The position numbers and the translations under genes were made by a program. A DNA stretch of 64,000 nucleotides from Aporhodopirellula rubra (lineage in GTDB: Bacteria > Planctomycetota > Planctomycetia > Pirellulales > Pirellulaceae): NCBI RefSeq assembly GCF_014192335.1, contig NZ_JACHXU010000002.1, positions 265,347 to 329,346 of the forward strand. The letters are read 5' to 3'. Every line of letters starts with the position of its first letter. Position 1 is the first letter of the stretch. Positions 75 through 47,662 of the stretch are shown one piece after another. A model generated the notes under the pieces. It searched no databases and was not told the DNA's origin. It saw only the letters and a list, made by a program, of their open reading frames with translations.

Positions 75-190
75 CACTCGGCGAAGGGTTGGTCAGAGAC
101 CCGTGTCACTTTCGTGAAAGCTAGCGGGGCGGGGCTCGAACCCGCTGGACCTTTCGGTCGTGCCATGTACTCCGAGCCGGCAGCCGAGTG
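75..190 (-). ncRNA. Structured RNA frame copy F1 enclosing a T-arm/acceptor minihelix
   Basis: Read on the minus strand. The outer helix pairs 183-190 with 75-82 (8 bp). It is followed by UGCCGGC, the second helix (171-175 with 93-97) and GUACAU, and the return strand ends CUUC. The insert (98-164) has a GACC-GAAA-GGUC hairpin, a good T-arm (GCGGG stem, UUCGAGC loop) and an acceptor-like strand capped by a UCAC-GAAA-GUGA hairpin. I see no D-arm or anticodon arm, so this is a minihelix rather than a whole tRNA. Function is unknown. Confidence 0.6.
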
Positions 191-234: not shown

Positions 235-379
235 CGATCGACGAAGTTGTGATCAGAGGGTTTACGGCGCTCTACCACTGAGCTACGCCCCTGAGTTTCT
301 GAATGAAAGTTGGGGCGGTGGGACTCGAACCCACGACATCCGGCTCCTGAAGCATGTACTCCGAATCGGCAGTCGATCG
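235..379 (-). tRNA. Permuted tRNA-like gene in RNA frame copy F2 (Leu CAG-like anticodon loop)
   Basis: The outer helix pairs 372-379 with 235-242; the inner helix pairs 360-364 with 253-257. Transcribed right to left, the tRNA 3' half comes first (353-312: anticodon loop UUCAGGA, T-arm, acceptor strand CGCCCC). A 20-nt loop containing a UUUC/GAAA hairpin follows, then the 5' half (291-259: GGGGCG acceptor strand, D-arm with GCUC/GAGC). The two acceptor strands pair over 6 bp only in this permuted order. Anticodon-stem bases CCG in the 5' half pair with CGG in the 3' half, which predicts a join between tRNA positions 29 and 30. No known bacterial tRNA-splicing enzyme is evident. Confidence 0.65.
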
Positions 380-389
380 TGTGCGCTAA

Positions 390-761
390 CTATTTCGTTT
401 TCTTCTTCGCAGCCTTTCGCATTTGTTTCCAAAGCGAGCGGCCGTTGTCCCGGTCAAGCCGGACGAGTTGTTGCTGCCGTGTGTCGAAAGCGGTCAGGTT
501 GCCCTTGGGTCGCTTTACATAAACGAACGGCAAGCAAACGGCGACGACTTTGTGCAGTTCGCCGACTGCACGTGGCAGGTAGCGAGTCCTTACGGGTTCG
601 TCGATTGGTTGTGAGATGCCCGAGCAGCTCCATAAGTAGGACGGAAGCTCGATGATCTCGCTGAGGATGGTGACGTAGTCACCTTTGGCGATGTCTTCGC
701 CAGCGATCCTGGCCGCGACGGTGGTCACGGTTTTGGATCGGCTTTCGGTTGTGGTTTTCAT
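390..761 (-). CDS. Hypothetical protein inside the tRNA array
   Basis: A 123-residue, soluble, basic protein ending in a lysine cluster (KKKTK). No signal peptide, membrane segment or family motif is recognised. It fills the largest gap between RNA genes in the left part of the array and is read in the same direction as the tRNAs, so it is probably co-transcribed with them. The start is the first ATG of the frame; the ribosome-binding site ahead of it is weak. A second unrelated small gene sits in a similar gap at 4770-5039. Coding status is inferred from the open frame and from the absence of any RNA fold here. Confidence 0.55.
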   Translation of the reverse strand: MKTTTESRSKTVTTVAARIAGEDIAKGDYVTILSEIIELPSYLWSCSGISQPIDEPVRTRYLPRAVGELHKVVAVCLPFVYVKRPKGNLTAFDTRQQQLVRLDRDNGRSLWKQMRKAAKKKTK

Positions 762-904
762 GTTTCCGCAATCGGTGAAAGAATGAATTGTGCATGTGTG
801 TTCTCTGTTGAGCAGCGAGCTGGATTACTCGCGGCCGGTCGTAATGGCGAAACAGGAATGTAAAACACGCATAGTTCAGTCTCTCGAGACGATTGTGGAA
901 AACG

Positions 905-1036
905 CGACTAACGAAGTGGTTGATCAGAGAAAATGTTCTGCCAATTAAACTACGAGCGAACCGAAGTTTGCTCGGTGGGAATCGAACCCACACCTTTCGA
1001 TTAAGAGTCGATGTACTCCGATGCGGCAGTTAGTCG
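905..1036 (-). tRNA. Permuted tRNA-Lys(CTT)-like gene in RNA frame copy F3
   Basis: The outer helix pairs 1029-1036 with 905-912 and the inner helix pairs 1017-1021 with 924-928. The 3' half is transcribed first (1010-969): it carries the complete lysine anticodon loop CUCUUAA and a canonical T-arm. The 5' half (958-931) has acceptor and D-arm. The acceptor strands (CGAGC with GCUCG) form a helix extended by AAC/GUU and closed by a UUCG tetraloop at 953-974. Joining the 5' half after two U residues to the 3' half beginning CGA rebuilds a 5-bp anticodon stem (UUCGA/UCGAA). This is the clearest permuted tRNA in the window. Confidence 0.7.
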
Positions 1037-1045
1037 TGTACGGTG

Positions 1046-1179
1046 GGCGACGAAGTTTGTGGTCAGAGGTTTTTTCCTGAGCTACTGGCAACCTTGCGTT
1101 TGACAGGCGGGGCTTGAACCCGCGACCTCGTCGCTCTCACGACGCGCTCTAACCTATGTACTCCGAACCGGCAGTCGCC
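1046..1179 (-). tRNA. Permuted tRNA-like gene in RNA frame copy F4, broken in the D-loop
   Basis: The outer helix is 6 bp (1174-1179 with 1046-1051); the inner helix pairs 1162-1166 with 1063-1067. The 3' part starts within the D-loop (GGUUAGAGC) and runs through an anticodon arm with a six-base loop, one short of normal, a 5-nt variable loop and a canonical T-arm. The 5' part (UUGCCAG, then UAGCUCAGG) follows. The acceptor strands pair CUG/CAG and CAA/UUG and are capped by a GCAA tetraloop at 1085-1106. Unlike F2 and F3 the break point is in the D-arm, so the frame is not tied to one tRNA position. Confidence 0.6.
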
Positions 1180-1203
1180 TTGTATTGTTGTTGTTTGAAA
1201 AAA

Positions 1204-1337
1204 CGATCGACGAAGTTTGTAAACCAGACAGATTCGATGCTCTACCAACTGAGCTACGAAGCGAACACAAGGTTCACATCGGTGGGACTCGAACCCACGA
1301 CACCCGAGGTGATGTAGTCCGATTAGGCAGTCAATCG
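1204..1337 (-). tRNA. Permuted tRNA-like gene in RNA frame copy F5 (possible Ala TGC)
   Basis: The outer helix pairs 1330-1337 with 1204-1211, with one G-U change relative to F2. The inner helix pairs 1318-1322 with 1224-1228. The 3' half (1310-1275) has a canonical T-arm; the 5' half (1263-1229) has UAGCUCAG and a GCUC/GAGC D-stem. The acceptor helix (1257-1281) runs on through GUGAAC/GUUCGC and is capped by a CUUGU loop. Joining the halves gives an anticodon loop close to UCUGCAC, resembling the alanine loop UUUGCAC of the tRNA at 4543-4613, but base 33 would be C. The frame is followed by six U residues. Confidence 0.6.
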
Positions 1338-1346
1338 TGTATTGGT

Positions 1347-1468
1347 GGCGACGAAGTGTTAACTCAGATCACTAACGTGTAGGAATCGAACCTACCGATC
1401 GTGTTGCCACGATCTCCAGACTCACTGGACGCAATCATTGGTGGATGGATTCCAAGCCGGCAGTCGCC
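1347..1468 (-). ncRNA. RNA frame copy F6 enclosing a D-armless, long-variable-arm tRNA-like body
   Basis: The outer helix GGCGAC/GUCGCC is at 1463-1468 and 1347-1352. The inner helix uses UUGGA with UCUGA, a compensated variant. The body between is in normal order: an acceptor-like helix (CACCAAUG with CGUUAGUG, one mismatch), a UCCAG/CUGGA arm with a UGAGU loop, a GAUCGUG-GCAA-CACGAUC variable arm, and a T-arm (GUAGG, UUCGAUU). Only about six bases replace the D-arm. The variable arm is of the Leu/Ser type. Whether it is charged is unknown. Confidence 0.55.
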
Positions 1469-1478
1469 ATGTTTTGTA

Positions 1479-1645
1479 AAAGTCCAACGAAGTTGTTGTT
1501 GAGAGGGTAAGAACGTCCGTTTCAGCGGTTGCTGATCGTTGACTGGCCCCTTCGTCTGCAAGAGACTCAGACGCCATTCACTAGCCGGTCGCCCGACATC
1601 GCTACCTTAGGCTCCTCATGTATTCCCAGCAGGCAGTTGAACTTT
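1479..1645 (-). ncRNA. RNA frame copy F7 with an unrecognised insert
   Basis: The outer helix is 10 bp (1636-1645 with 1479-1488). The inner helix is UGGGA with UCUCA, which preserves pairing by changing both strands relative to the other copies. The insert (1505-1618) is about 114 nt. It contains a GUCUG/CAGAC hairpin but no T-loop that I can recognise, so it may be a decayed tRNA or something else. Confidence 0.5.
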
Positions 1646-1655
1646 GTGTTGTGAT

Positions 1656-1723
1656 CGACCAACGAAGGAGTGTGAATCAGACGGGCCTTTAGCAAAGATG
1701 TAGTCCGATTCGTCAGTTGGTCG
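1656..1723 (-). ncRNA. Minimal RNA frame copy F8
   Basis: This is the shortest form, 68 nt. The outer helix is 8 bp (1716-1723 with 1656-1663), followed by UGACGAA, the inner helix UCGGA/UCUGA, CUACAU, and only about 17 nt of insert with a CUUU/AAAG hairpin. It begins 6 nt after the end of the tRNA-Cys gene. It shows that the frame can exist without a tRNA body. Confidence 0.55.
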
Positions 1724-1729
1724 ACCAAG

Positions 1730-1800
1730 AAACGCTGGTGGGAGTCGAACCCACTTGAACCGGGTTGCAGCCGGCCGCCTAGCCATCTGGCTCCAGCGTT
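1730..1800 (-). tRNA. tRNA-Cys(GCA)
   Basis: Full cloverleaf in normal order. The acceptor AACGCTG/CAGCGTT is 7 bp, the anticodon GCA lies at 1766-1768 and the T-loop is UUCGACU. CCA is not encoded. RNA frame F8 follows directly downstream. Confidence 0.9.
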
Positions 1801-1875
1801 TTGTCGCTCGCGGGTTTGCCACGAGCGTGTTCTTTCAGTCGTCGTCCCTAAAAGTAGTCGTCGCGGTTGACGCCA

Positions 1876-2073
1876 TCACAGACGCCCCGATCGTAGGCAG
1901 CAACGTTTGAATCGCTGACCGCTGCCACATGGGCATCGGTCGTTGCGACCGAGCTTTTCCTCGAGCTGCTTGCCTTGGATGATTCGGACTCCGCGTTTGA
2001 CTTTCGTTTCCGACGGGTAGCCTTTACGACGTTTGCTCATCGGCTCGAAAGCAGAGGTCTTCGTCGCAGTCAT
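1876..2073 (-). CDS. Small SEC-C motif protein
   Basis: A 65-residue basic protein whose last 25 residues form a SEC-C zinc motif ([18 protein letters not shown], with cysteines in CxC...CC spacing). The same zinc-binding tail is found at the C terminus of SecA and in many small accessory proteins, where it mediates protein or nucleic-acid contacts. Here it is essentially free-standing behind an arginine/lysine-rich leader. It lies between tRNA-Cys and tRNA-Arg in the array and is read with them. The start is uncertain: the first ATG is used, but an in-frame ATG 11 codons later (MSKRRKGY) is equally good and neither has a clear ribosome-binding site. Confidence 0.7.
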
Positions 2074-2136
2074 GTTGGTTGTCGTGTCGCATTGGTCTGC
2101 TCCGGCTTGAGAGTGAAAGTATTGAATCCTTCAAAG

Positions 2137-2207
2137 ACGGACCGACGAAGGGACAACTCAGATGGTTCACATTTTCAAGATGTAATCCGAGTCTGCAGTC
2201 GATCAGT
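2137..2207 (-). ncRNA. Minimal RNA frame copy F9
   Basis: A 71-nt copy with a 10-position outer helix (2198-2207 with 2137-2146, one mismatch). The inner helix UCGGA/UCUGA lies at 2186-2190 and 2158-2162. UUACAU follows, and the insert is about 19 nt. It starts 3 nt after the end of the tRNA-Arg gene, the same arrangement as F8 after tRNA-Cys. Confidence 0.5.
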
Positions 2208-2210
2208 CAG

Positions 2211-2283
2211 TGCTCTCGCCAGGAATCGAACCTGGTCTACGACCTTCGCAAAGTCGCGTGCGAATCCGGCACACTCCGAGAAC
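2211..2283 (-). tRNA. tRNA-Arg(GCG)
   Basis: The acceptor GTTCTCG/CGAGAGC and T-arm CCAGG-UUCGAUU-CCUGG are intact. The anticodon loop UUGCGAA gives anticodon GCG. This is an uncommon choice in bacteria, which normally read CGN with an A34 (inosine) tRNA. Confidence 0.85.
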
Positions 2284-2287
2284 ATAG

Positions 2288-2321
2288 GCAGCGCCGGCAA
2301 ACATTGCGTGCCGGCACTGCG
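2288..2321. repeat. 12-bp hairpin with a 9-base loop
   Basis: The two arms (2288-2299 and 2310-2321) are complementary apart from one G-U position. It lies just downstream of the SPFH gene and may end that transcript, but it has no following T-run. Confidence 0.5.
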
Positions 2322-2382
2322 TAAGTGACATCAATCGACTCGGTATGGTTCGCATCCTTCGCGAATCATTCGTCATCGACGA

Positions 2383-3240
2383 TTATTCATCGTGACTGAC
2401 TCGGCCTCTTTCGAGATCGAGATACAGTCGTGCGTTGGCGTTCTTTGCCAAATCACGAAGCGTTTCAAGCTCAGCCAATCGCAACAGCGCTGGGTGTCCT
2501 TCCAACACTCCTGCTGCCTTCGCTCGTTGCTCGTAGGCTTGCGTTTCCGCGTCCACCTTTGCTCGCAACGATTCGGCTTCCGCTTGCTCTCGCAATCGAA
2601 GTGCTTCTGCGTCCGTCGAAGCATCTCGCCGCGTGATTTCCGCTCGCGATTCGGATTCGATCTGCTCGACTTCCGCTCGCGTTCGTGCTTCCACCAACTG
2701 GGCTTGGCTTTGTCGTTCCGCCGCCAACACGCGATTCATGATCTCCTGCAGGTTTCCTGGGAAGATCAAGTCCTTCACGTCGGCTCGACGAATCGCAACA
2801 CCGTATCCATTCGCTGACTCCGTCACGTCCGAAAGGATGTCTTCACTTAACCGGTTTCGGTTGGTCAGGATTTCTTCCAGATTCATCGACGCCAGCGAAC
2901 GACGCGCCGCCAATTGCACGTCGCTGTAAAGTCGATCCTCGAACACGTCCACTGTGTGGATCGCAGCCTTCGGATCGGTCACGCGGAACTGCACCAGGAT
3001 GCTCACGCGAATCGCGACCTTGTCTGCGGTCAGGATTTCCTGGCCCTTGATCGTCAGTTCGCGTTCGCGGATGTCGACCAGCATGCACTCGACCGTTGGC
3101 AGTTCCTTGAACCACTGCTTGTGCGGTGGAATCTTGTACCGGCCGGCTTCGAGCACCTTGGTTAGCTTGCCGTCTTCGTAGTACAAGCCGCGGTGCGTGT
3201 CCTTGATGATGAACTCTCGTCCTGCACCTGTAATCATCAT
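2383..3240 (-). CDS. SPFH (slipin/prohibitin-type) protein
   Basis: A 285-residue SPFH-family protein. The SPFH domain spans roughly residues 10-190 (VLEAGRYKIPP near 30, then the typical beta-rich core), followed by an alanine/glutamate-rich coiled coil from about 165 to 250. There is no N-terminal membrane anchor, unlike most slipins, so membrane attachment would need a partner. SPFH proteins form ring-like membrane scaffolds; a specific role here is unknown. The start is the ATG pair at 3240, preceded by a strong AAAGGAGG site. It is the longest protein gene in the tRNA array and is read in the array's direction. Confidence 0.85.
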   Translation of the reverse strand: MMITGAGREFIIKDTHRGLYYEDGKLTKVLEAGRYKIPPHKQWFKELPTVECMLVDIRERELTIKGQEILTADKVAIRVSILVQFRVTDPKAAIHTVDVFEDRLYSDVQLAARRSLASMNLEEILTNRNRLSEDILSDVTESANGYGVAIRRADVKDLIFPGNLQEIMNRVLAAERQSQAQLVEARTRAEVEQIESESRAEITRRDASTDAEALRLREQAEAESLRAKVDAETQAYEQRAKAAGVLEGHPALLRLAELETLRDLAKNANARLYLDLERGRVSHDE

Positions 3241-3404
3241 ATCGCACCTCCTTTCGATGTTTGCGTTTCACGAATTGTGTAAGGAGCCTCGGAGCGGAGC
3301 CGATGTGGAGAACAAGCTTTCAGATGTGGAAATTCTGAGCGTTCATTCCGAGAGGTGATCGCAGGAACCAAATGGTTGCTCGCTCCTGACGCCGCCGAGG
3401 CAAG

Positions 3405-3476
3405 TAACCCGTCCAGGAATCGAACCTGGTCCGACAGTTTCGAAGACTGCCATGCTATCCAGCACACCCACGAGTC
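3405..3476 (-). tRNA. tRNA-Arg(TCG)
   Basis: The acceptor GACTCGT/ACGGGTT pairs along all seven positions with two G-U pairs. The anticodon loop is CUUCGAA and the T-loop UUCGAUU. The D-arm is short and unusual. Confidence 0.8.
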
Positions 3477-3500
3477 ATGTTATTGGTCATTAAGTTACAA

Positions 3501-3576
3501 GAGCCGACGACTGGGTTCGCACCAGCATGATCTGCTTTACAAGAGCAGCGTCTTTCTGAATCGAGCCACGTCGGCT
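3501..3576 (-). tRNA. tRNA-Thr(TGT)
   Basis: The acceptor AGCCGAC/GTCGGCT is perfect and the anticodon arm CUGCU-CUUGUAA-AGCAG is intact. The T-loop is UGCGAAC instead of UUCGAAC and the D-arm is atypical. Confidence 0.8.
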
Positions 3577-3590
3577 TGGTGTCGTATCAG

Positions 3591-3662
3591 TAGCCCGACC
3601 AGGAATCGAACCCGGAACTTCTGGTTAGAAGCCAGAGGTGATTTCCGTTTCACCATCGAGCC
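3591..3662 (-). tRNA. tRNA-Arg(TCT)
   Basis: The acceptor GGCTCGA/TCGGGCT pairs with G-U pairs. The anticodon loop is CUUCUAA and the T-loop UUCGAUU. Confidence 0.88.
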
Positions 3663-3675
3663 GTTTGCAAACAAG

Positions 3676-3761
3676 CGGAAGGCGAGGGAGTCGAACCCTC
3701 ATCACCCGAAGGTGGCACGCGTTAGCAGTGCGGCCCGGCAAACCGTATCCGGCTGCCTTCC
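3676..3761 (-). tRNA. tRNA-Ser(GCT)
   Basis: Long-variable-arm tRNA with acceptor GGAAGGC/GCCTTCC, G73 and variable hairpin CACC-UUCG-GGUG. The anticodon is GCU, but the anticodon stem has mismatches. Confidence 0.82.
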
Positions 3762-3782
3762 GTAAACTAAAATTGAGAGTGG

Positions 3783-3852
3783 ACCGGACGGGAATCGAAA
3801 CCTTCCACCGACTTTGCAAGAGTCAGTCGCCGCCTTGGAACATGCCAGCCCA
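3783..3852 (-). tRNA. tRNA-Ala(TGC), irregular
   Basis: The anticodon loop CUUGCAA in a GACU/AGUC stem is clear. The T-arm is shortened and the acceptor pairs imperfectly, so this copy may be non-functional. Confidence 0.6.
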
Positions 3853-3866
3853 TTTGTTTTCATCAG

Positions 3867-3937
3867 AGGTCCGTCCGGGAATTGAACCCGGTCTTCGTCC
3901 ATACCACAGACGCGTGCTGCCGCAACACTTACAGACC
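3867..3937 (-). tRNA. tRNA-Thr(GGT)
   Basis: The acceptor GGTCTGT/ACGGACC, anticodon loop GUGGUAU and T-arm CCGGG-UUCAAUU-CCCGG are all intact. Confidence 0.9.
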
Positions 3938-3948
3938 GATTGCATCAG

Positions 3949-4021
3949 TGATCACGGATGGAATCGAACCATCGGTCTCCTGCTTGTCACGCAGGCGTCT
4001 TAGCCGCTGGACCACGCGATC
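3949..4021 (-). tRNA. tRNA-Val(GAC)
   Basis: The acceptor GATCGCG/CGTGATC, anticodon arm CCUGC-GUGACAA-GCAGG and a normal T-arm are all present. Confidence 0.88.
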
Positions 4022-4031
4022 GTTTTGTGAG

Positions 4032-4107
4032 TAGTCGAGACAGGAGTCGAACCTGCAAAATCACAAGCCTCTCATGCTTGCCGCTTTGCCTGTTTGCGTA
4101 CTCGACC
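4032..4107 (-). tRNA. tRNA-Leu(GAG)
   Basis: The acceptor GGTCGAG/CTCGACT and anticodon arm CAAGC-AUGAGAG-GCUUG are clear. The variable region is much shorter than usual for leucine tRNAs. Confidence 0.82.
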
Positions 4108-4115
4108 ATCGGAAG

Positions 4116-4184
4116 TAGCGGATTCGGGGGTCGCACCCGACGTGCCTGGCATATGAAACCTGGCTGGGCACTGGCCCATCCGCG
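4116..4184 (-). tRNA. tRNA-Met(CAT) or Ile2
   Basis: The anticodon is CAU in loop UUCAUAU. The T-loop is UGCGACC, the anticodon stem has one mismatch, and the acceptor has six pairs. Sequence alone cannot separate Met from lysidine-type Ile. Confidence 0.72.
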
Positions 4185-4203
4185 TTGTTGTTTGCATTGA
4201 AAG

Positions 4204-4273
4204 TTGCAGGTCTCGGTATCGAGCCGAGCACACCGACCTCATGAAAGTCAGTTGGACACCTGTCGCACCTGCA
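4204..4273 (-). tRNA. tRNA-Met(CAT) or Ile2
   Basis: The acceptor TGCAGGT/ACCTGCA is perfect and the anticodon loop is UUCAUGA. This is the second CAU tRNA of the array, only 19 nt from the first. Confidence 0.82.
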
Positions 4274-4282
4274 GTGTTGAAG

Positions 4283-4366
4283 TAGCCAAGGCGAGAGTTG
4301 AACTCGCACGCCACTGTGGGCACGACATTCTGAGTGTCGCGTGTCTACCGGTTCCACCACTTGGCT
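4283..4366 (-). tRNA. tRNA-Leu(CAG)
   Basis: The acceptor AGCCAAG/CTTGGCT and anticodon arm CGACA-CUCAGAA-UGUCG are intact, with a variable arm. Confidence 0.9.
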
Positions 4367-4379
4367 GTTTGCATCGAAG

Positions 4380-4453
4380 TACTGCGGGAGGGAGTCGAAC
4401 CCTCAAACACGAACGTTTGAAATTCGCCGCTTTGCCGGTTTGCGTACCACAGC
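4380..4453 (-). tRNA. tRNA-Leu(CAA)
   Basis: The acceptor GCTGTGG/CCGCAGT and anticodon arm CGAAU-UUCAAAC-GUUCG are intact, with a canonical T-arm. Confidence 0.88.
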
Positions 4454-4465
4454 ATGTTAAATGAG

Positions 4466-4537
4466 TACTGAGGGCGGGAGTCGAACCCGCAAGCACTTGT
4501 TCCTAAGACAAGCGGCTCGCCGTTGGCCTACCTCAGC
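4466..4537 (-). tRNA. tRNA-Leu(TAG)
   Basis: The acceptor GCTGAGG/CCTCAGT, anticodon arm CUUGU-CUUAGGA-ACAAG and a canonical T-arm are present. Confidence 0.9.
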
Positions 4538-4542
4538 GTGAG

Positions 4543-4613
4543 TGGAGCACCGGGGAATCGAACCCCGATTTTCTGCGTGCAAAACAGATGTCTTCCCGTT
4601 GGACGAGCGCCCC
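4543..4613 (-). tRNA. tRNA-Ala(TGC)
   Basis: The acceptor GGGGCGC/GTGCTCC includes the G3-U70 pair that identifies alanine tRNAs. The anticodon loop is UUUGCAC. Confidence 0.93.
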
Positions 4614-4631
4614 GTGTTGTTTCTTTGTCAG

Positions 4632-4705
4632 TGCCCAGAGCAGGAGTCGAACCTGCAAACACTCGGGTTTAAAGCGAGCCGCTCGGCCGGTTGGCGTACC
4701 TAGGC
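4632..4705 (-). tRNA. tRNA-Leu(TAA)
   Basis: The acceptor GCCTAGG/TCTGGGC and anticodon loop UUUAAAC are clear. It is the fifth leucine isoacceptor of the array. Confidence 0.87.
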
Positions 4706-4769
4706 GTTGATCGCTGGTGCCGCGGGAAAGGACGCGACCGACCGCGTCCTTCCCTTGGCTGCCAACGTG

Positions 4770-5039
4770 TTACGCATGCAATCGAGGAGCACTGTCGCCG
4801 GTCGACTTGCGATGGTTCTTGATCGCCTTGTGCGTATCAGGAATCTGGTCGCCTTCGACGATCACATCGCCGACGCACTCGACCACCCAGCCGTCGACCC
4901 AACCGACGTTGTCGTCTTTCAGCCTCAGCGCGCGGCCGACCTTCGCAAACTCGTGCGGGATGTACGATGTCGTTCGCACTGATCCGCCGGCGATGCTGCG
5001 TCTCATCGCACATTGCACGTACTTCACATTGCTGGACAT
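4770..5039 (-). CDS. Hypothetical protein inside the tRNA array
   Basis: An 89-residue protein starting MSSNVKYVQC, with a short charged C terminus and no recognisable family. The ATG at 5039 is chosen over the longer frame because GGGAG lies a few bases ahead of it and because the upstream part of the frame runs through tRNA-Val. Like the gene at 390-761 it occupies a gap between tRNA genes and shares their direction, which suggests co-transcription. No membrane segment or signal peptide is visible. Confidence 0.65.
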   Translation of the reverse strand: MSSNVKYVQCAMRRSIAGGSVRTTSYIPHEFAKVGRALRLKDDNVGWVDGWVVECVGDVIVEGDQIPDTHKAIKNHRKSTGDSAPRLHA

Positions 5040-5089
5040 TATCGTTCTCCCTTGGTAAATGAAAGCGATCGTCACTCCGACGCCAGCAG

Positions 5090-5161
5090 TAGTCCCGGAT
5101 GGAATCGAACCATCGTTTCCTGCATGTAAAACAGGTGTCGTCGCCGTTGGACCACAGGACC
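5090..5161 (-). tRNA. tRNA-Val(TAC)
   Basis: The acceptor GGTCCTG/CGGGACT, anticodon arm CCUGU-UUUACAU-GCAGG and a normal T-arm are present. Confidence 0.9.
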
Positions 5162-5180
5162 ATGTTGTCGATCCGAAGAG

Positions 5181-5251
5181 CACGTCCCCAAGGATTTGAA
5201 CCCTGACTAACTGGTTTGGAATCAGCAGTGCTACCGTTACACCAGAGACGT
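5181..5251 (-). tRNA. tRNA-Trp(CCA)
   Basis: The acceptor ACGTCTC/GGGACGT, G73 and anticodon loop UUCCAAA are present; the top pair of the anticodon stem is mismatched. Confidence 0.83.
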
Positions 5252-5271
5252 GTGAAACTTTTCAAAACAAG

Positions 5272-5356
5272 TGGGAACGCAAGGAATCGCACCTCTCGCC
5301 GACTACCACACAATTAAAGGCAGAAGGGTTACAACCTCCCGTGTGGAAACGCTCCC
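5272..5356 (-). tRNA. tRNA-Tyr(GTA)
   Basis: The acceptor GGGAGCG/CGTTCCC and anticodon arm GGAGG-UUGUAAC-CCUUC are clear. There is a long variable arm, and the T-loop is UGCGAUU. Confidence 0.78.
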
Positions 5357-5374
5357 ATGTATCAATCGAACAAG

Positions 5375-5458
5375 CGGAAGCCGTGGGACTCGAACCCACA
5401 ACGGTTTTTGACCGCAGCTGTTTTCAAGACAGTGTCCTCATCCGGCCGGGTGACTTCC
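5375..5458 (-). tRNA. tRNA-Ser(TGA)
   Basis: The acceptor GGAAGTC/GGCTTCC, G73, anticodon loop CUUGAAA and a long variable arm are all typical of serine. Confidence 0.93.
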
Positions 5459-5479
5459 GTAGTGCGTTATCAAACGCAG

Positions 5480-5554
5480 TGACGTGAGCGGGAATCGAAC
5501 CCGCGGACTCCTGGATGAAAACCAGACGATTCTGCCATCAGAATCTACCACGCC
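5480..5554 (-). tRNA. tRNA-Glu(TTC)
   Basis: The acceptor GGCGTGG/TCACGTC (with G-U pairs) and anticodon arm UCUGG-UUUUCAU-CCAGG are present. Confidence 0.87.
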
Positions 5555-5580
5555 GTTTGGTTGCTTCGATCGAAGCGAGT

Positions 5581-5650
5581 ACCGCATAGGAGTTTCGATC
5601 TCCTTCCTGCTGCCTGAGAAGCAGCCGACCTAGCCAGTAGTCGAATGCGG
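5581..5650 (-). tRNA. tRNA-Glu(CTC), irregular T-loop
   Basis: The anticodon arm GCUGC-UUCUCAG-GCAGC is clear and six acceptor pairs form. The T-loop reads AUCGAAA, so function is doubtful. Confidence 0.72.
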
Positions 5651-5661
5651 CGAATTGAAAG

Positions 5662-5734
5662 CGATGGCAACGGGAGTCGAACCCGCAGCGACTTGATAGA
5701 CAATCAAGCTTCCTTCCCAGAGGAAATTGCCACC
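5662..5734 (-). tRNA. tRNA-Asp(GTC)
   Basis: The acceptor GGTGGCA/TGCCATC, G73 and anticodon arm CUUGA-UUGUCUA-UCAAG are present. Confidence 0.9.
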
Positions 5735-5750
5735 GAAAATGTTCGCGTCA

Positions 5751-5826
5751 GGTGACCAACCGGAATTGAACCGGCGCCAAACTCATTCACAGTGAGTCTC
5801 TGGAAACCAACACCAGATCTGGCCAC
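5751..5826 (-). tRNA. tRNA-His(GTG)
   Basis: The acceptor GTGGCCA/TGGTCAC, C73 as expected for histidine, and anticodon arm ACUCA-CUGUGAA-UGAGU are present. Confidence 0.9.
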
Positions 5827-5828
5827 AG

Positions 5829-5903
5829 CACCGGAGACTGGAATCGAACCAATGAACTCCTCGTTCAGAGCGAGGTGCAGCGACCAACAACTGCTACTCC
5901 GGC
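5829..5903 (-). tRNA. tRNA-Gln(CTG)
   Basis: The acceptor GCCGGAG/CTCCGGT, G73 and anticodon arm CCUCG-CUCUGAA-CGAGG are present. Confidence 0.9.
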
Positions 5904-5925
5904 GTTTGGTCTTCAATAACAACAG

Positions 5926-5993
5926 CACTCCGTCCGGGAATTGAACCCGATCTGCGAGCTTCAAAGGCTCACGTCGCGACTACGCGCCGGAGA
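5926..5993 (-). tRNA. tRNA-Gln(TTG)
   Basis: The anticodon loop CUUUGAA in a GAGC/GCUC stem and a good T-arm are clear; acceptor pairing is imperfect at its ends. Confidence 0.82.
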
Positions 5994-6012
5994 GAGTTTT
6001 CACAATCGAAAG

Positions 6013-6084
6013 AGTGTCCTGCGGGAGTCGAACCCACCTAGCCGGATTGGAAATCCGGAACCTTTGCCGCTCGGCCAAGGACAC
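6013..6084 (-). tRNA. tRNA-Gly(TCC)
   Basis: The acceptor GTGTCCT/AGGACAC is perfect and the anticodon arm is CCGGA-UUUCCAA-UCCGG. Confidence 0.92.
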
Positions 6085-6094
6085 GAAATATGCG

Positions 6095-6163
6095 GAAGTT
6101 TGAAGGGCGAGGTGTGGAACGAAGCGAGCTATTCCACACTTCTCGCTTCACCCTTCAAACTTC
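6095..6163. repeat. Long imperfect palindrome between tRNA genes
   Basis: The arms at 6095-6107 and 6151-6163 match exactly (13 bp) and pairing continues inward with small interruptions, giving a hairpin of about 69 nt. It resembles a REP-type or miniature inverted-repeat element and is the only such insert among the conventional tRNAs. Confidence 0.7.
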
Positions 6164-6169
6164 GCGAAG

Positions 6170-6241
6170 CTCCGGCGGATGGACTCGAACCATCACTCGT
6201 CTCCTTAACAGGGAGCCGCCTTACCATTGGGCCACACCGGA
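6170..6241 (-). tRNA. tRNA-Asn(GTT)
   Basis: The acceptor TCCGGTG/CGCCGGA, G73 and anticodon loop CUGUUAA are present. Confidence 0.93.
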
Positions 6242-6249
6242 TTCTGCAA

Positions 6250-6320
6250 AGCGCCCAGTGGGAGTCGAACCCACACTTCCGCCATGGCAAGGCAGCAGGC
6301 TACCGCTACATCATGGGCGC
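6250..6320 (-). tRNA. tRNA-Gly(GCC)
   Basis: The acceptor GCGCCCA/TGGGCGC is perfect and the anticodon loop is UUGCCAU. Confidence 0.93.
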
Positions 6321-6372
6321 AAAAATGCATCACTACCAAATTGTCAAAGATCAATGACGCCGAAGCGTTCAA

Positions 6373-6445
6373 GAGCACCGAGCCGGAATCGAACCCGCAT
6401 CACCTCGTTACGACGGAGGAGTCTTGCCGTTAGACCATCAGTGCT
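6373..6445 (-). tRNA. tRNA-Thr(CGT)
   Basis: The acceptor AGCACTG/CGGTGCT and anticodon loop GUCGUAA are clear; one pair of the anticodon stem is mismatched. Confidence 0.87.
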
Positions 6446-6464
6446 TGTTTCCAAATGTCTCAAG

Positions 6465-6537
6465 TGGGATCGGTGAGAATCGAACTCACATCGCTCGGAT
6501 TAAGAGTCCGATGCATTACCTTGTCTGCCACAATCCC
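6465..6537 (-). tRNA. tRNA-Lys(CTT)
   Basis: The acceptor GGGATTG/CGATCCC and anticodon loop CUCUUAA in a CGGA/UCCG stem are clear. The permuted copy at 905-1036 has the same anticodon loop. Confidence 0.93.
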
Positions 6538-6562
6538 ATGTGTGTCGTTGTTGTTTCGTTCA

Positions 6563-6637
6563 GTCGGCGTGGCGGGAATTGAACCCGCGACCGTCGCCTT
6601 ATAAGGACGCCGCTCTCACCCCTGAGCTACACGCCGA
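6563..6637 (-). tRNA. tRNA-Ile(TAT)
   Basis: The acceptor TCGGCGT/ACGCCGA and the UAGCUCAG D-arm are clear. The anticodon loop CUUAUAA gives UAU, a rare bacterial anticodon that reads AUA without needing lysidine. Confidence 0.88.
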
Positions 6638-6647
6638 TGCGTAGCAA

Positions 6648-6720
6648 TGGGGCCGAAGGGAGTTGAACCCTCACCGAACGGATTAAAAGTCCGTCATGCT
6701 GCCAGTTACACCACAGCCCC
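6648..6720 (-). tRNA. tRNA-Lys(TTT)
   Basis: The acceptor GGGGCTG/CGGCCCC and anticodon loop CUUUUAA are present. Confidence 0.93.
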
Positions 6721-6798
6721 ACTTTTTCAGTCGCGGCTATGCGTTTCAATCGCAATGAAGGCAGCATGTTGGTTTCTCTTTCGTGTTGTTGTTGCAAG

Positions 6799-6870
6799 TG
6801 GTAGCCCCGAGGATCGAACTCAGCGCGACCCGCGTATCAGGCGGATTTGGGCGACCAGCCCTCGACTACC
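6799..6870 (-). tRNA. tRNA-Ile(GAT)
   Basis: The acceptor GGTAGTC/GGCTACC and anticodon arm UCCGC-CUGAUAC-GCGGG are clear. The T-arm is slightly irregular. Confidence 0.82.
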
Positions 6871-6889
6871 ATGTTGTCGTTTCAAAAAG

Positions 6890-6962
6890 TCGGACACCTC
6901 GGAGTCGAACCGAGAGCCTCCTGGTCCCAAACCAGGCGTGCTTCCATCTGCACCTGTATCCG
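6890..6962 (-). tRNA. tRNA-Pro(TGG)
   Basis: The acceptor CGGATAC/GTGTCCG and anticodon arm CCUGG-UUUGGGA-CCAGG are present. Confidence 0.93.
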
Positions 6963-7019
6963 ATGTTGCTTGTTCCTCTCACCGCGGATGATTCCGTCGG
7001 CGCATATTTTCCTTGTCAG

Positions 7020-7091
7020 TGGGCCGGGAGGCGCTCGAATCCTCGTCTGCGGTTCTTCAGACCGCCGCTAGACCGTCTCAGCTACCAGCCC
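7020..7091 (-). tRNA. tRNA-Phe(GAA)
   Basis: The acceptor GGGCTGG/CCGGCCC and anticodon arm GCGGU-CUGAAGA-ACCGC are present; the T-loop carries extra bases. This is the first tRNA of the array in transcription order. Confidence 0.82.
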
Positions 7092-7498: not shown

Positions 7499-7957
7499 TT
7501 AGTCGCGGGGTTTTAGGAAACGCAGGTGATGAGCGGCATGTGCAGTATGAATTTGCTCAATCCTCTCACGCGGCAATCGCTCAAACGCTGGATGCGGAGC
7601 GTAGTCGCCAAGGTGAGCGTAGAACCGAGCCACGCTCGCAGCGAAAGCGTCAACTTCTCGAACGTCATCCAGTTCCACGGGCGGAACGAACATCGACGCT
7701 GTACGAATTCCGCGAGGTGAATCGCCGCTGACAACTTTCGGCAAGAGGATCCGTCGCATTGCAGGACGCAAGAACGCAAACAGTGACATCCACTTCGGAT
7801 AACCATCGACACTCGGATCTTGCACGAGTACCAGATGGCGGCAGATTTGCCCGAGCGACCAATTGCCACTGCGGTCGTAGCCGCTCCTCAGAAGAGACCG
7901 CGCCTCGTCAATCGCCGCGTTCAGATCATCGAAGTGTAGTTCACGCAGTTGTTCCAT
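7499..7957 (-). CDS. DUF1569 family protein
   Basis: A 152-residue protein matching the DUF1569 pattern, a DinB/YfiT-like four-helix-bundle family common in Planctomycetota. The characteristic parts are WSLGQICRHLV near residue 33 and the C-terminal HTAHAAHHLRFL near residue 139, where histidines typical of DinB-like metal sites are kept. The function of the family is not established. The gene is monocistronic, diverges from the CoA-binding protein at 8045, and ends about 330 bases before the terminator at 7134-7167. Confidence 0.85.
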   Translation of the reverse strand: MEQLRELHFDDLNAAIDEARSLLRSGYDRSGNWSLGQICRHLVLVQDPSVDGYPKWMSLFAFLRPAMRRILLPKVVSGDSPRGIRTASMFVPPVELDDVREVDAFAASVARFYAHLGDYAPHPAFERLPRERIEQIHTAHAAHHLRFLKPRD

Positions 7958-8044: not shown

Positions 8045-8437
8045 ATGCACTCAATCGAAAAGTTTCTCGCAGCGAAAACTTATGCAGTCGCCGGCGCCTC
8101 GGCCCGCACACACAAGTACGGTTACAAGGTCTTCAAAGCCCTCCTGGCCGCCGGCCGCGAGACGTATCCGCTGAACCCGGTCACCGAAGAAATCGAAGGC
8201 CACAAGGCTTATCCGAAAATCGCGGACCTTCCCATCGTCCCCGAAGCACTGTCAATCATCACGCCACCAGAAGTCACCCGGCAAGTCATCGCCGACGCAA
8301 TCGAGGCTGGCGTGAAGCACATCTGGATGCAGCCTGGGGCGGAACACGAGCAGGCCAGTGAATCGGAACGCGAAGCCGGCATCAACGTCATCGACGACGG
8401 CAGTTGCATTCTCGTGCTCTTGGCCCGCCAATCATGA
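8045..8437 (+). CDS. CoA-binding domain protein (YccU-like)
   Basis: A 130-residue single-domain Rossmann protein of the CoA_binding_2 (YccU) family. The N-terminal KTYAVAGASARTHKYGYKV is the nucleotide-binding strand-loop, followed by YPLNPVTEEIEGHKAYP and SIITPPEVT, all typical. Proteins of this family bind CoA; the cellular role is unclear. The gene overlaps the downstream acetyltransferase by four bases (ATGA), so the two are translationally coupled. An acetyl-CoA-using enzyme beside a CoA-binding protein fits, but a direct link is inference. Confidence 0.9.
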   Translation: MHSIEKFLAAKTYAVAGASARTHKYGYKVFKALLAAGRETYPLNPVTEEIEGHKAYPKIADLPIVPEALSIITPPEVTRQVIADAIEAGVKHIWMQPGAEHEQASESEREAGINVIDDGSCILVLLARQS

Positions 8438-23899: not shown

Positions 23900-24690
23900 C
23901 AGTTGATTCCCAACACGTTGAAGTTTCCTCCGTGATAGACCTGCTCAACGTAAGCTGCCTCAGGAACTTGCAGCACGCGATCGCCGACCACTTTCTCGCC
24001 GTGCTTGACCCACAAGTAGTCCCAACCTTGCTTCGTGATTCCGGTGATGTTGCCAACCGTCATCGCGAACTCGTTCGGTCGAGCGGCGAAGTGGTAAGTC
24101 ACGTCGACCCAGTTCTGTTCGTCTTCGCCGCCTTCGCCACCAAGGAACAGAGCTTCACCGGGAGAGAAGATCGACCACGGCGTCGAGTTCACTCGCCCGG
24201 TCATCGCAACCATGGCGAGCAGATATCCCGTCGAAACGAACTCAAACTTCTTGCGAACGGAGAATTCAAACGCAGGGACAGTGATGTCAACGCCGGCGAC
24301 GCCAGAATCGCTAACGCCGATCGCACCGTGATAAACGGGGGCTACGATCCCCGGCGCGGAGTAGATGCCACGAGTCTGCAGCGATTGATTCAGATGGGTT
24401 GTCGCTCCGGTTGTACTGAACGAGACCGGATCGAGTTTGGTTTTGTTGATCGTGACGCTAACCAAAGCGTGCTTCTGGTTAATGAACTCCGAGTCGATTT
24501 GCAGATACGGAATCAGGTCCTTGTGATTCGCCTTGTAGTATTGATACAAAGAACTCGCAGCGGCAGCCGGATCCACAGCCCCGCCGTTCGTCGCGACGTA
24601 GGAAGTGAAATCGGAATGCAATTTCCCCCGCGACGCCTTTTCGGAGAGAGCCGCAACCTCAAAGTTGTATCCACCGGTTGAGAGCGACAT
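23899..24690 (-). CDS. Probable phage tail protein
   Basis: A 263-residue, mostly beta-strand protein without signal or membrane segments. Its position directly after the tape measure, with one-base spacing, is where distal tail or baseplate proteins are encoded, and the next gene is the serine-rich fibre-like protein. No domain is recognised from sequence, so the assignment rests on gene order. Confidence 0.6.
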   Translation of the reverse strand: MSLSTGGYNFEVAALSEKASRGKLHSDFTSYVATNGGAVDPAAAASSLYQYYKANHKDLIPYLQIDSEFINQKHALVSVTINKTKLDPVSFSTTGATTHLNQSLQTRGIYSAPGIVAPVYHGAIGVSDSGVAGVDITVPAFEFSVRKKFEFVSTGYLLAMVAMTGRVNSTPWSIFSPGEALFLGGEGGEDEQNWVDVTYHFAARPNEFAMTVGNITGITKQGWDYLWVKHGEKVVGDRVLQVPEAAYVEQVYHGGNFNVLGIN

Positions 24691-37232: not shown

Positions 37233-37559
37233 TGTGCTGCGAAACGAGCATCCTCCTCTGGTATCTCTCGCGAGGAACCACAATTCGCGTCCCAAAGCGT
37301 CGCTAAATGACACCCAAAGTCCGAGAACAGTAAGAATGCTCCGGTGTCGGCCGCCGGAGCGCGCAATGAGGCGGATCCCGGTGTGTTGGATCATCTGTGC
37401 CTGCGATTCTGTTCCTGTAAAACGCATTGCGAAATCTTGTCGTGCGAACGTCTTTTCCGGATGACGTTGACGAGTGGCGATGGGGATACCGACAAAATCT
37501 GCCGTCGGTGTTACAGTTGCATCTGGCAACTTGAACTTCGTTGGGGAATCCAGACAAAT
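37233..37559. other. Divergent intergenic region between structural operon and STAND gene
   Basis: The open frame of the STAND gene continues through most of it but has no coding character. It holds a CTCCGG-rich hairpin at 37339-37360 and presumably the promoter of the STAND gene, which I cannot pinpoint. Confidence 0.4.
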
Positions 37560-40500
37560 ATGTCAGACACGATCAAAATCGAAGAAATCGACGGTCGTAT
37601 CGATTTCGCCGTGCTAACGATTAGAGATGACGAATTCCGTGCCGTGCTTGATCGGTTCAAGCCGTCTCGCACCGTGCTGGGTGGAAAGCTTATCTATGAA
37701 TTCGCGACTCTCACGAACCGAATTGGCGAGGAAATCACCGTTGTTGTTTCGCGGACAATAGATCAAGGTCATGGTGCCGCTCAGACTCATGCACACAGCA
37801 TCATTAGTGACCTTTCTCCGTCTTGGTTGGTTCTTGCGGGAATTGCCGGTGGTTGTCCGGACAAGGAATTCACGCTCGGCGATGTGCTTCTTGCGAGCCG
37901 TCTAATTGACTTCTCGGTTACTGCAGCAATACAAGACGAAGGCCTAGAGTTCAGGACGACTGGCGGTCCCATGCACCGGGACGTTGAACGCCTTCTTGGT
38001 TGGTTACCGGCAAAAGGTGACACTCTTGGCCCATGGAATTCCAACGAATCGCTCAATGCAGCGAAACCACGGATCGAACTGCCCAGTTCCACTGAAGATA
38101 CGAGCTTGTACGGTCCGACCGACTTCCGAAAAAAAGTGCTTGACGCAATAGAACACCATTTCCCCTCGAATGGCGATCTGCGGCCGCCGATTTTCCGGCC
38201 AGATGTACTTGCAACTTCAAACGTACTCCTCAAGCAATACGAATTGCTTGAGGAATGGAAGAAGGCAGCACGGCAAATCTCTCATGTTGAAATGGAGGCA
38301 GGGGGTGTATACCACGCCGCCCGCCACGGAGGCGAGCACGAGATTCCGCTACTCTGCGTCCGCGGGATCAGCGACATCGTCGGATATAAACGCAGTGGTG
38401 AGTGGACAAACTTCGCGTGCCAGTCGGCTGCCGCACTATTCCAAGCGTTACTCATCCAGTTACCGAGAGATGTTTGGGGTAATTCACTGTCTAACAGTCG
38501 GCAAATCTCGGTCGGGCCAGAAAGTGCTCGCGAGAGTACGATGCCGACCGTGGGAGCTATGTCCGCCGCATTCAAGCAGTCGTCGCAGACGCTGATGTCA
38601 ATGGTAGTTGACGATGACGAGCGAATCGAGCGTGTCGAAGAAAATGAGATTGAATCCACACTTAATGAAAAGACAACAGCCTTACTCCTTGGTCCACCGG
38701 GTAGCGGAAAAACGTGCCTTCTCGCAAAGGTAGCGCAAGATGCGACTGATCGCGGCCTTGTCACGTTAGCTTTGAAGGCGGATATGTTCCCGCATGATCT
38801 TTGCTTTGGCGAATGGGGGAGACGAGTCCTCGATTTGGATGTCGCTTTGTTTGACGCCGTAAAGGCAGTGTCTACAAATACATCCGTGTTGGTCGTTGTC
38901 GATCAACTCGATGCTCTTGCGAGTACAGTTGATCTTACGTCGAGTCGGCTGAACGAAATCGTCGAGTTTGTCGCCCGATGTTCCGAGCTACCAAATGTGT
39001 CTGTTCTTTGTTCGTGCCGCGACTTCGATTACACGTATGACACTCGTTTTCGCCGGCTAAACTCCAAGACAATCTCGCTCGCTCTTCCTACGTGGGAAAG
39101 TGTCTCCGAACGTCTCACCAGCCAGGGCATACCCAACGCCAATGATTGGTCGGACGAATTCAAGGAAGTTTTGCGAACTCCTCAGCATCTCGGTGTATTT
39201 CTCCGAAGCTACTCCGATACTGGGAATGTGTCGCCGTTCGACTCTTACCAAACAATGCTCGGTGACTCTTGGTCACGCGCCGTCGTGTCGAATGAGGAGC
39301 GACAACTGCTCCAAGACCTGACGAAAAAGCTAGTAGCGACCGAGTCAATTTGGACTCCCCTCGTAAGTTTTCAAGAGTGTTCGTCAACAATCACAGCACT
39401 GCAGGCAAAAGGCATCTTGCGTACAGAAGACCAATCTCTTGGTTTTGCACATCAAACTCTCTTGGAGTATGCGAAGGCACGGTTCTTCACGGAGTCTGAA
39501 GTTTCGCTCTGCACGTTCGTATTGGAGTCAGGACGGCAAGATTCCGTTTTAGTGAGACCAACGGTTTGGTCCGTGCTTACATATCTACGTCGTGCGGACG
39601 AACGCCGCTATCGCGAAGAGATCGAACGTCTTTTTTCCAGCGAACTGCGGTTGCATCTTCGATTTCTTCTGATTGATTTCGTGTGCCGTCAAGACAAACC
39701 CCATGAGTTTGAAGTTGCCTTGATCGGAGTGCGACTCTCGCAACCGGACGAGCGTACTAGAATCTTGATCGCGATTCGCGGCAAAGAGCGATGGTTTCGT
39801 GCATTTCATGCAACGCACTTTCCAGATATCATGCGACTGGAGCCTTACGATCAATGGCCGATGGTCGCATTAGTATCTGAGTCATGGGACTTCGCCTTTT
39901 CCGAGTGCCTCAAGCTTGTCACTAAACATTGGCTGCCGCACGAAAAATTTGACCAGCTGACACACCGAGTAATTCGTGAATGCGGACGCTGGACCGGCGA
40001 GACAATTGCAGTCGTAAATCGACTCATTGATCGCGACAACTCGGACGAAGCACCATATTGGATCGAAGACCTTGTAGCGACTGTTTCCGCGAGTGCACCA
40101 GAAAAAGCGGGAGCACTCTTCGTTCGTGCAATGACGAGAATCGAATCGAACTTAGATGCGTCCGATCGTTCCCCAAGCCGCTATGACAGTCCAATCGAGC
40201 GATCAAAGGGATGGTACGACTTACCAGAAATCGCGAAGGCGTCGCCGTCAAGCTTCTTGTCTGATGCATGGCCATGGGCTGTCAAGGCAATTCAAAAACA
40301 CCATAAAGAACACGTTGGATCGGTGCTTTATTCGTACGCTGGGTATTGTCTGGCGATGGAGGAGAACGAATGGCGTCGTGAGTCGTCTGTCCTTACGGCG
40401 ATAGACGCGGCAATTGATGCGGTATCACAGGATGATCCAAAACAATTCATCGAGATTACTGAACCAACTTGGCGATCTGAAAACGCCGTTGTCCATCGAC

Positions 40501-47557: not shown

Positions 47558-47662
47558 ACCGAAGCCGAAACGCCAGCACGGAGGCTTGGCGTCGCGGCGG
47601 GTGGTACCCGTCGCCTGACGATGGCAGCCAACCACGAACCTTTCCCTTTCGGAGAACGAACG

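Follow-up and report, generated by a model that had tools for sequence, protein, structure and literature searches.

Tandem Y RNA-like units with tRNA- and rRNA-like modules beside a Ro60/Rsr gene in Aporhodopirellula rubra

The unit array and its neighborhood

The window analyzed here is a 64,000-nucleotide stretch of the Aporhodopirellula rubra genome (contig NZ_JACHXU010000002.1, positions 265,347–329,346). Ten Y RNA-like units with common flanks were found on the minus strand, at positions 75–2205 of the window and in the last 150 bases before it. They lie at the 3′ end, as transcribed, of a same-strand array of 31 ordinary tRNA genes. Positions outside the window are given on the fetched locus L009, where the window position is the L009 position minus 10000. 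The features are as follows.

L009:9850–9989, minus strand: tenth Y RNA-like unit, just before the window; shared flanks, YrlA model 27.0 bits
75–190, minus strand: Y RNA-like unit; T arm, GAAA-capped arm, and short acceptor-like helix, without a D arm (module read by eye)
235–379, minus strand: Y RNA-like unit with a permuted tRNA module; Leu(CAG) anticodon arm kept, core entering at the anticodon stem
905–1036, minus strand: Y RNA-like unit with a permuted tRNA module that retains a Lys(CUU) anticodon arm and has a UUCG-closed acceptor; YrlA model 24.9 bits
1044–1181, minus strand: Y RNA-like unit with a permuted tRNA module; D-loop opening, anticodon arm capped by a GAGA tetraloop, acceptor closed by GCAA
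1204–1337, minus strand: Y RNA-like unit with a permuted tRNA module; YrlA model 44.2 bits, acceptor with 6 of 7 pairs, anticodon arm indistinct
1345–1470, minus strand: Y RNA-like unit with a normal-order tRNA-like module; joined to the core through its acceptor end, with a long variable arm and without a D arm (read by eye)
1481–1643, minus strand: Y RNA-like unit with a 23S rRNA-like insert (around what we take to be helices 69–71); helix 69 strands in permuted order
1656–1723, minus strand: Y RNA-like unit with a short insert whose loop, UUGCUAA, may be Ser(GCU)-like; too few pairs for the hairpin test
approximately 2140–2205, minus strand: Y RNA-like unit with a short insert that folds into an anticodon-like hairpin, its loop CUUGAAA resembling that of Ser UGA; recognized from the flank match and the fold
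1729–7091, minus strand: array of 31 ordinary tRNA genes (ARAGORN)
2383–3240, minus strand: gene for a Band_7/SPFH protein within the tRNA array; a similar gene was present in 9 of 26 stretches compared

The preliminary description of this DNA had recognized four circularly permuted tRNA genes. The four units lie where they had been placed, almost to the base (235–379, 905–1036, 1044–1181, and 1204–1337), but they are not alone, with five more units in the window (75–190, 1345–1470, 1481–1643, 1656–1723, and approximately 2140–2205) and the one at L009:9850–9989. The unit at 235–379 was characterized from its match to the YrlA model (48.1 bits), the covariation in a 17-unit alignment, and the ARAGORN result after joining, all described below. 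The point at which the core enters the module differs among the units: it is the anticodon stem at 235–379 and 905–1036, and, as read by eye, the D loop at 1044–1181 and the acceptor end at 1345–1470. The genome as a whole has 67 tRNA matches, 25 within the array and 42 elsewhere. A 123-amino-acid ORF without a Pfam match lies between two of the units (390–761, minus strand).

Just downstream of the array and outside the window, a Ro60/Rsr gene occupies L009:8169–9827 on the minus strand. Its 552-amino-acid product matched the vWA_Ro60 domain (E = 7.9e-14) and the TROVE domain (E = 1e-6; the Pfam TROVE match is partial, covering profile positions 286–351). The best solved relative was the Rsr (Ro sixty-related) protein of D. 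radiodurans (2nvo; E = 1.5e-19, residues 11–537).

Prophage structural genes, including those for a tail tape measure protein, a capsid, a lambda-type portal, and a terminase gpA, were found at 24690–45032, apart from the array. The array is unlikely to be part of the prophage: in two other genomes (L041 and L047), relatives of two window genes (7499–7957 and 8045–8437) are likewise found close to the array. Within the phage region, but opposite to the surrounding phage genes, a plus-strand gene at 37344–42449 encodes a 1701-amino-acid protein that matches PNP/UDP phosphorylase and AAA/STAND-type NTPase domains and looks like a defense-type protein. A type II hammerhead ribozyme match (47563–47633, plus strand; 42.7 bits, cut-off 37) lies opposite a long ORF of the phage region.

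The shared core and its association with Ro60/Rsr

As RNA, the core shared by the units reads, from 5′ to 3′, closing helix, UGCCGnn, UCGGAG, UACAU, insert, CUCUGA, nCAnnnnCUUC, and the closing helix again; UGCCGnn and nCAnnnnCUUC face each other as an internal loop, beyond which a second helix follows. With up to three mismatches, the 5′ flank pattern matched 10 places in the 64-kb window versus 0.12 expected; nine of these are units, and the tenth (22977) is not. When 221 flank matches were collected from the fetched loci without any structural requirement, a closing helix of at least six contiguous pairs, flush with the 3′ motif, was found in 170, versus 44, 44, and 48 after the downstream regions had been swapped between matches.

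A detector returned 216 units in these loci, of which 20 were dropped and 196 kept. Some of the dropped units look real (e.g., in L021, L044, L052, and L060) and others are coding stretches. The kept set retains at least one false match (L009 index 3944), and a 23S-like unit in it carries a T-arm label (L062 index 26). The unit at 2140–2205 escaped the detector and is absent from the counted set. Some loci of one genome overlap, which makes the units not fully independent. Across the 196 kept units, UGCC, GGA, UACAU, and CUUC were nearly constant, and the outer closing pairs varied widely with their pairing maintained, the pairing of the inner ones having been partly selected for by the detector. 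The third closing pair was G-C in 139 units and A-T in 52. The minimum-energy folds of single units gave uneven z values (−3.1, 0.0, −0.6, −0.2, −2.2, −2.3, and −2.0), some of them from units with clipped helices. The same core also wraps inserts other than tRNA modules, among them short inserts, 23S-like inserts, and GGGAGC-type inserts, and it looks like the core of a Y RNA.

The Rfam model of YrlA (RF02553) matched positions 238–364 (48.1 bits) and 1201–1337 (44.2 bits) at the E-value threshold, with weaker matches at L009:9847–9989 (27.0 bits) and 908–1021 (24.9 bits). All four lie below the gathering score of 69, the best score in a relative being 51.4 bits (L041), and no YrlA was found in the window at the Rfam gathering threshold. 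Because the scores are below this cut-off, the units are filed here as RNAs of the Y RNA kind and not as RF02553 proper. The alignment of the YrlA model itself runs from a T arm through a closed acceptor-like hairpin to a D arm, and a passage of PMC11472068 describes the superposition of the Y RNA 6CU1 on tRNAs by circular permutation. The permuted order is thus the known design of YrlA, and a permuted tRNA-like RNA is already on record for bacteria. Since the Y RNA studied is itself a circularly permuted tRNA mimic, rejoining of the two halves need not be assumed. According to a review (PMC8394870), YrlA contacts Rsr through its basal stem and PNPase through its tRNA-like domain.

The flank motif, with at most one mismatch allowed, was detected in 76 of the 296 genomes searched, a count that includes the genome of the window. 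Its occurrences often clustered on one strand, and a reversed control pattern yielded a handful of matches. TROVE was matched in 66 of the 296 genomes, and its co-occurrence with the motif was strong (51 of 76 motif genomes vs 15 of 220 others, p = 5.7e-25), with 25 motif genomes lacking a TROVE match and 15 TROVE genomes lacking the motif. Motif places were listed for 50 genomes, two of them entered in part; among the places listed, 34 genomes had both features, and the nearest motif was 0.8–1.7 kb from TROVE in 32 and on a different contig in two. Among 149 genomes sampled from the phylum, only two carried the motif, the window's own and one of the same family. A stricter motif found 38 stretches in named genomes, of which 36 were labeled as planctomycete (among them Neorhodopirellula pilleata Pla100, Rubripirellula obstinata CECT 8602, and the chromosomes of strains K23_9 and TBK1r), one was from Arthrobacter, and one from another bacterium. 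At least 19 tRNAs were present in 11 of 19 fetched motif stretches, and few or none in the others. Four loci (L030, L041, L042, and L043) each contained 8–10 kept units. Within the tRNA/Y RNA islands, five loci also encode a 276–278-amino-acid protein without a Pfam match (e.g., L042:7058–7888). In a viral collection, the flank motif or the 23S-like seed was present on two contigs, L010 and L098, the former with 32 tRNAs.

Modules carried by the units

The order described initially, with the tRNA 3′ half before the 5′ half and with acceptor strands that pair in that order, was borne out in the window and its relatives. The acceptor strands paired at six or more of seven positions in 97 of 105 T-arm units, whereas strands swapped between units did so in a mean of 40.4 and a maximum of 49 of the 105. 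An acceptor helix was present in 100 of 106 units analyzed, the linkers that join the acceptor ends being 3–50 nt long; 49 of these 100 linkers contained a UUCG or GNRA-like string, and in four, CCA was at or beside the start. Head-to-tail joining of the inserts led ARAGORN to call a junction-spanning tRNA for 66 of the 123 T-arm units, many with an undetermined anticodon, versus none of 123 in genomic order, 0–1 in dinucleotide shuffles, none in reverse complements, and none of 35 in the non-tRNA classes. Joining to random partners gave 24–33, a high value attributable to the resemblance of the units to one another.

Two of the four units break in the anticodon stem, as had been noted, and rejoining them gives sensible stems. 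The joined window copies were called Leu(CAG) at 235–379 and Lys(CUU) at 905–1036. Units of the latter type read as Lys in five loci, whereas two loci had Asn(GUU) instead. The unit at 1044–1181 is permuted as proposed, but by eye it has no anticodon, opens in the D loop, and carries a GAGA-capped arm. A Leu(GAG) anticodon was ruled out there, as GAGA forms the tetraloop (by eye). Copying of the modules from neighboring tRNAs was also considered and is unsupported, with a best alignment score per tRNA length of 0.64.

The Leu(CAG) type was examined in an alignment of 17 units, 11 of the 235–379 type and six related. The 11 were taken from the 13 units with UUCAGGA and include one from the dropped set, the six related units have hand-set coordinates, and one unit (L060) is offset at its ends. 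The 34 pairs of the structure taken from the window copy were retained in 99.1% of 573 cells, whereas slid partners paired in at most 53.2%, and double-sided changes occurred in 27 cells versus 5.1 in shuffles. The acceptor hairpin, T arm, D arm, anticodon hairpin, and a short stem across the two halves are all kept. Conservation of acceptor pairing in related strains had been put forward as part of the check on decay, and these compensatory changes speak against decay. The sequence GCUUCAGGAGCCGG was identical in 13 of 13 Leu(CAG)-type inserts, the window included. Two units of this type (L048 index 9655 and L078 index 55) have an extra hairpin-like insertion of approximately 60 nt in the acceptor linker. 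The insertion resembles the arrival of a small repeat, which the linker seems to tolerate.

Short inserts frequently form anticodon-type hairpins, defined by at least four pairs, a 7-nt loop, U33, and a purine at 37. Such hairpins were found in 18 of 43 short inserts versus a mean of 1.2 and a maximum of 6 in shuffles; the other 25, including that of the window unit at 1656–1723, failed the test. Loops with U-G-U, the anticodons of Asn, Asp, His, and Tyr, occurred in 10 short inserts versus at most one in any shuffle. A further kind of insert, the GGGAGC hairpin, bears no likeness to tRNA or 23S rRNA and was found in nine of the 216 detected and six of the 196 kept units (e.g., L020 index 1439, L013 index 1616, and L052 index 6238).

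The insert of the unit at 1481–1643 recurs in 22 labeled units and probably copies part of domain IV of 23S rRNA. The sequence CCUAAGGUAGCGA and its neighbors in this module match the 23S rRNA of the same genome, in a region that we take to be helices 69–71 of domain IV. In an alignment of 17 of the 22 units, from which the structure itself was derived, the two ends of the insert pair with each other in all cells in the manner of helix 69, so that the strands are permuted; both sides have changed at three of five pairs, and a hairpin like helix 71 follows. The class was chosen by a seed word, which biases its overall similarity score to 23S rRNA. In a separate sequence comparison with shuffles, the 60 nt after the seed scored above the 95th percentile in 10 of 19 units and the leading strand in only two of 19, a weak likeness. 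The 3′ part of the module is therefore well supported, and the permuted 5′ part rests on the structure. The 23S-like units of L041 and L045 retain a loop like that of helix 69, and the 13 nt of the L041 loop are identical to those in the 23S rRNA of that genome.

Interpretation and related systems

The common core, the covariation, the adjoining Rsr gene, the closed acceptor hairpins, and the conserved modules together point to Y RNAs, and we consider it very probable that the units form an expanded array of bacterial Y RNAs of the YrlA kind for the Ro60/Rsr protein. The fuller explanation, in which each RNA of an Rsr-dedicated array combines a Y core with a module from the translation machinery, is likely to be correct as a whole. 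The units would be transcribed as RNAs whose acceptor hairpins are left uncut. The Y core would dock on the Rsr ring, and the free module, whether a permuted tRNA, a normal-order tRNA, an anticodon stem-loop, or probably a piece of 23S rRNA domain IV, would offer a handle or gate to a protein that knows tRNA or rRNA. With an array of different handles, one Rsr might meet several partners and be aimed at chosen RNA substrates. An ortholog of Ro, to go by a title, reportedly has a role in 23S rRNA maturation. In D. radiodurans, a Y RNA tethers Rsr to PNPase, as part of PMC8394870 describes, and we lean slightly toward such a tether or gate as the mechanism of the modules. More tentatively, and with rather less confidence than would make it our expectation, one Ro60 protein together with a library of about ten RNAs, each mimicking a different part of the translation machinery (anticodon arms, permuted tRNAs, and 23S helices 69–71), may amount to a swappable, RNA-coded targeting panel. 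If so, a single ring protein could be aimed at, or could shield, many specific RNA targets, for example, against anticodon nucleases or ribosome-attacking nucleases, and Y RNAs that mimic rRNA would be part of the panel. Few Y RNAs have known partners. If each module in these arrays is a bait or decoy, its identity, such as a Leu or Lys anticodon arm or the piece around 23S helices 69–71, would name candidate partners.

The modules might instead act mainly as decoys, with the anticodon arms and the 23S-like piece competing for nucleases that attack anticodons or the ribosome and the adjoining tRNA array replacing the tRNAs that are cut. We regard this as rather unlikely to be their principal role, although it is compatible with the tether model, and the two roles are inseparable by sequence alone. 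The excess of anticodon-type hairpins over the shuffle maximum, the 10 U-G-U loops, and the invariance of GCUUCAGGAGCCGG fit such a role, as does the suggestion in a passage of PMC7790460 that YrlA competitively inhibits an anticodon nuclease, which according to the same passage was not found to cut YrlA. Arrays of tRNAs are also termed a putative antidefense system in the excerpted text of PMC12803027. On the other hand, no nuclease gene linked to the array came to light, the hairpin test was passed by fewer than half of the short inserts (25 of 43 did not), a tetraloop caps one anticodon arm, and the classic YrlA, as judged from the model alignment, has no anticodon arm.

Genuine permuted tRNA genes, in which the acceptor hairpin is cut and ligation of the halves at the anticodon stem yields functional tRNAs, were the reading originally proposed, and it is very unlikely. 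The permuted order, the acceptor pairing, and the sensible rejoined stems of two units agree with it, and as the genome has two RtcB ligase genes elsewhere, ligation is conceivable on enzyme grounds. However, the flanks look like a Y RNA core, the adjoining gene encodes Ro60/Rsr, and the same core wraps inserts that such a reading does not accommodate, with two short-insert units, one normal-order unit, and one 23S-like unit in the window. The acceptor linkers, 3–50 nt long and with a UUCG or GNRA-like string in about half of cases, begin at or beside CCA in four of 100. Moreover, 42 of the 67 tRNA matches of the genome lie outside the array, and YrlA as already described is permuted in the same way with no rejoining of halves. 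An origin as decayed, horizontally acquired tRNA pieces is still less credible. The units are odd partial tRNAs inside a dense cluster, and a 2016 study reported clusters with partially degraded tRNAs in many planctomycetes (in a passage of PMC4807772), but the compensatory changes, the conservation of the core around every kind of insert, and the linkage to Ro60 all oppose decay. DNA-level recombination hairpins similar to integron attC sites, with the tRNA in the loop, can be practically dismissed: some closing helices end in AAC/GTT, which presumably resemble attC boxes, but G-C (139 of the 196 units) and A-T (52) both occur as the third closing pair, the inserts are conserved RNA modules, and Ro60 is linked. 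A permuted group I intron or a small ribozyme was rejected, the core being only about 50 nt and no ribozyme family reaching the Rfam cut-off at the array.

Under the preferred Y RNA reading, what is new is a matter of degree: the number of units, the point at which the core enters, the anticodon arms on their own, and the 23S-like module. Neither Y RNA arrays in planctomycetes nor Y RNAs that mimic rRNA were found described among titles, the beginnings of abstracts, and text passages, which does not establish their absence from print. The same reading offers another view of the planctomycete clusters of “degenerate tRNA genes” treated in part of PMC4807772, which are possibly other clusters than these, and it advises caution in annotating permuted tRNAs in such Y RNA/tRNA islands.

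Among known systems, the permuted tRNA genes of algae and archaea likewise have the 3′ half before the 5′ half, but here a Y core takes the place of the splice flanks, the acceptor ends are closed by a hairpin, and the sequence bears no sign of rejoining. The tRNA array units of bacteria, plasmids, and phages share the dense run of tRNAs beyond the scattered set, whereas the present array is joined to Y RNAs and a Ro60 gene. YrlA (RF02553; 6CU1) has the same basal helix and internal loop, followed by a permuted T arm, an acceptor-like hairpin, and a D arm, and is likewise encoded beside Ro60/Rsr; the present units differ from it in their sub-gathering scores, their tandem arrangement of about ten, the full anticodon arms of some, the varied entry points of the core, and the anticodon hairpins or 23S-like inserts of others. 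The Y RNA/Rsr/PNPase assembly of D. radiodurans (RYPER) is built on a Ro60-type protein, to whose Rsr the present protein is similar at E = 1.5e-19, and its Y RNA, as tether and gate, is the model adopted here; the difference lies in the number and variety of the modules.
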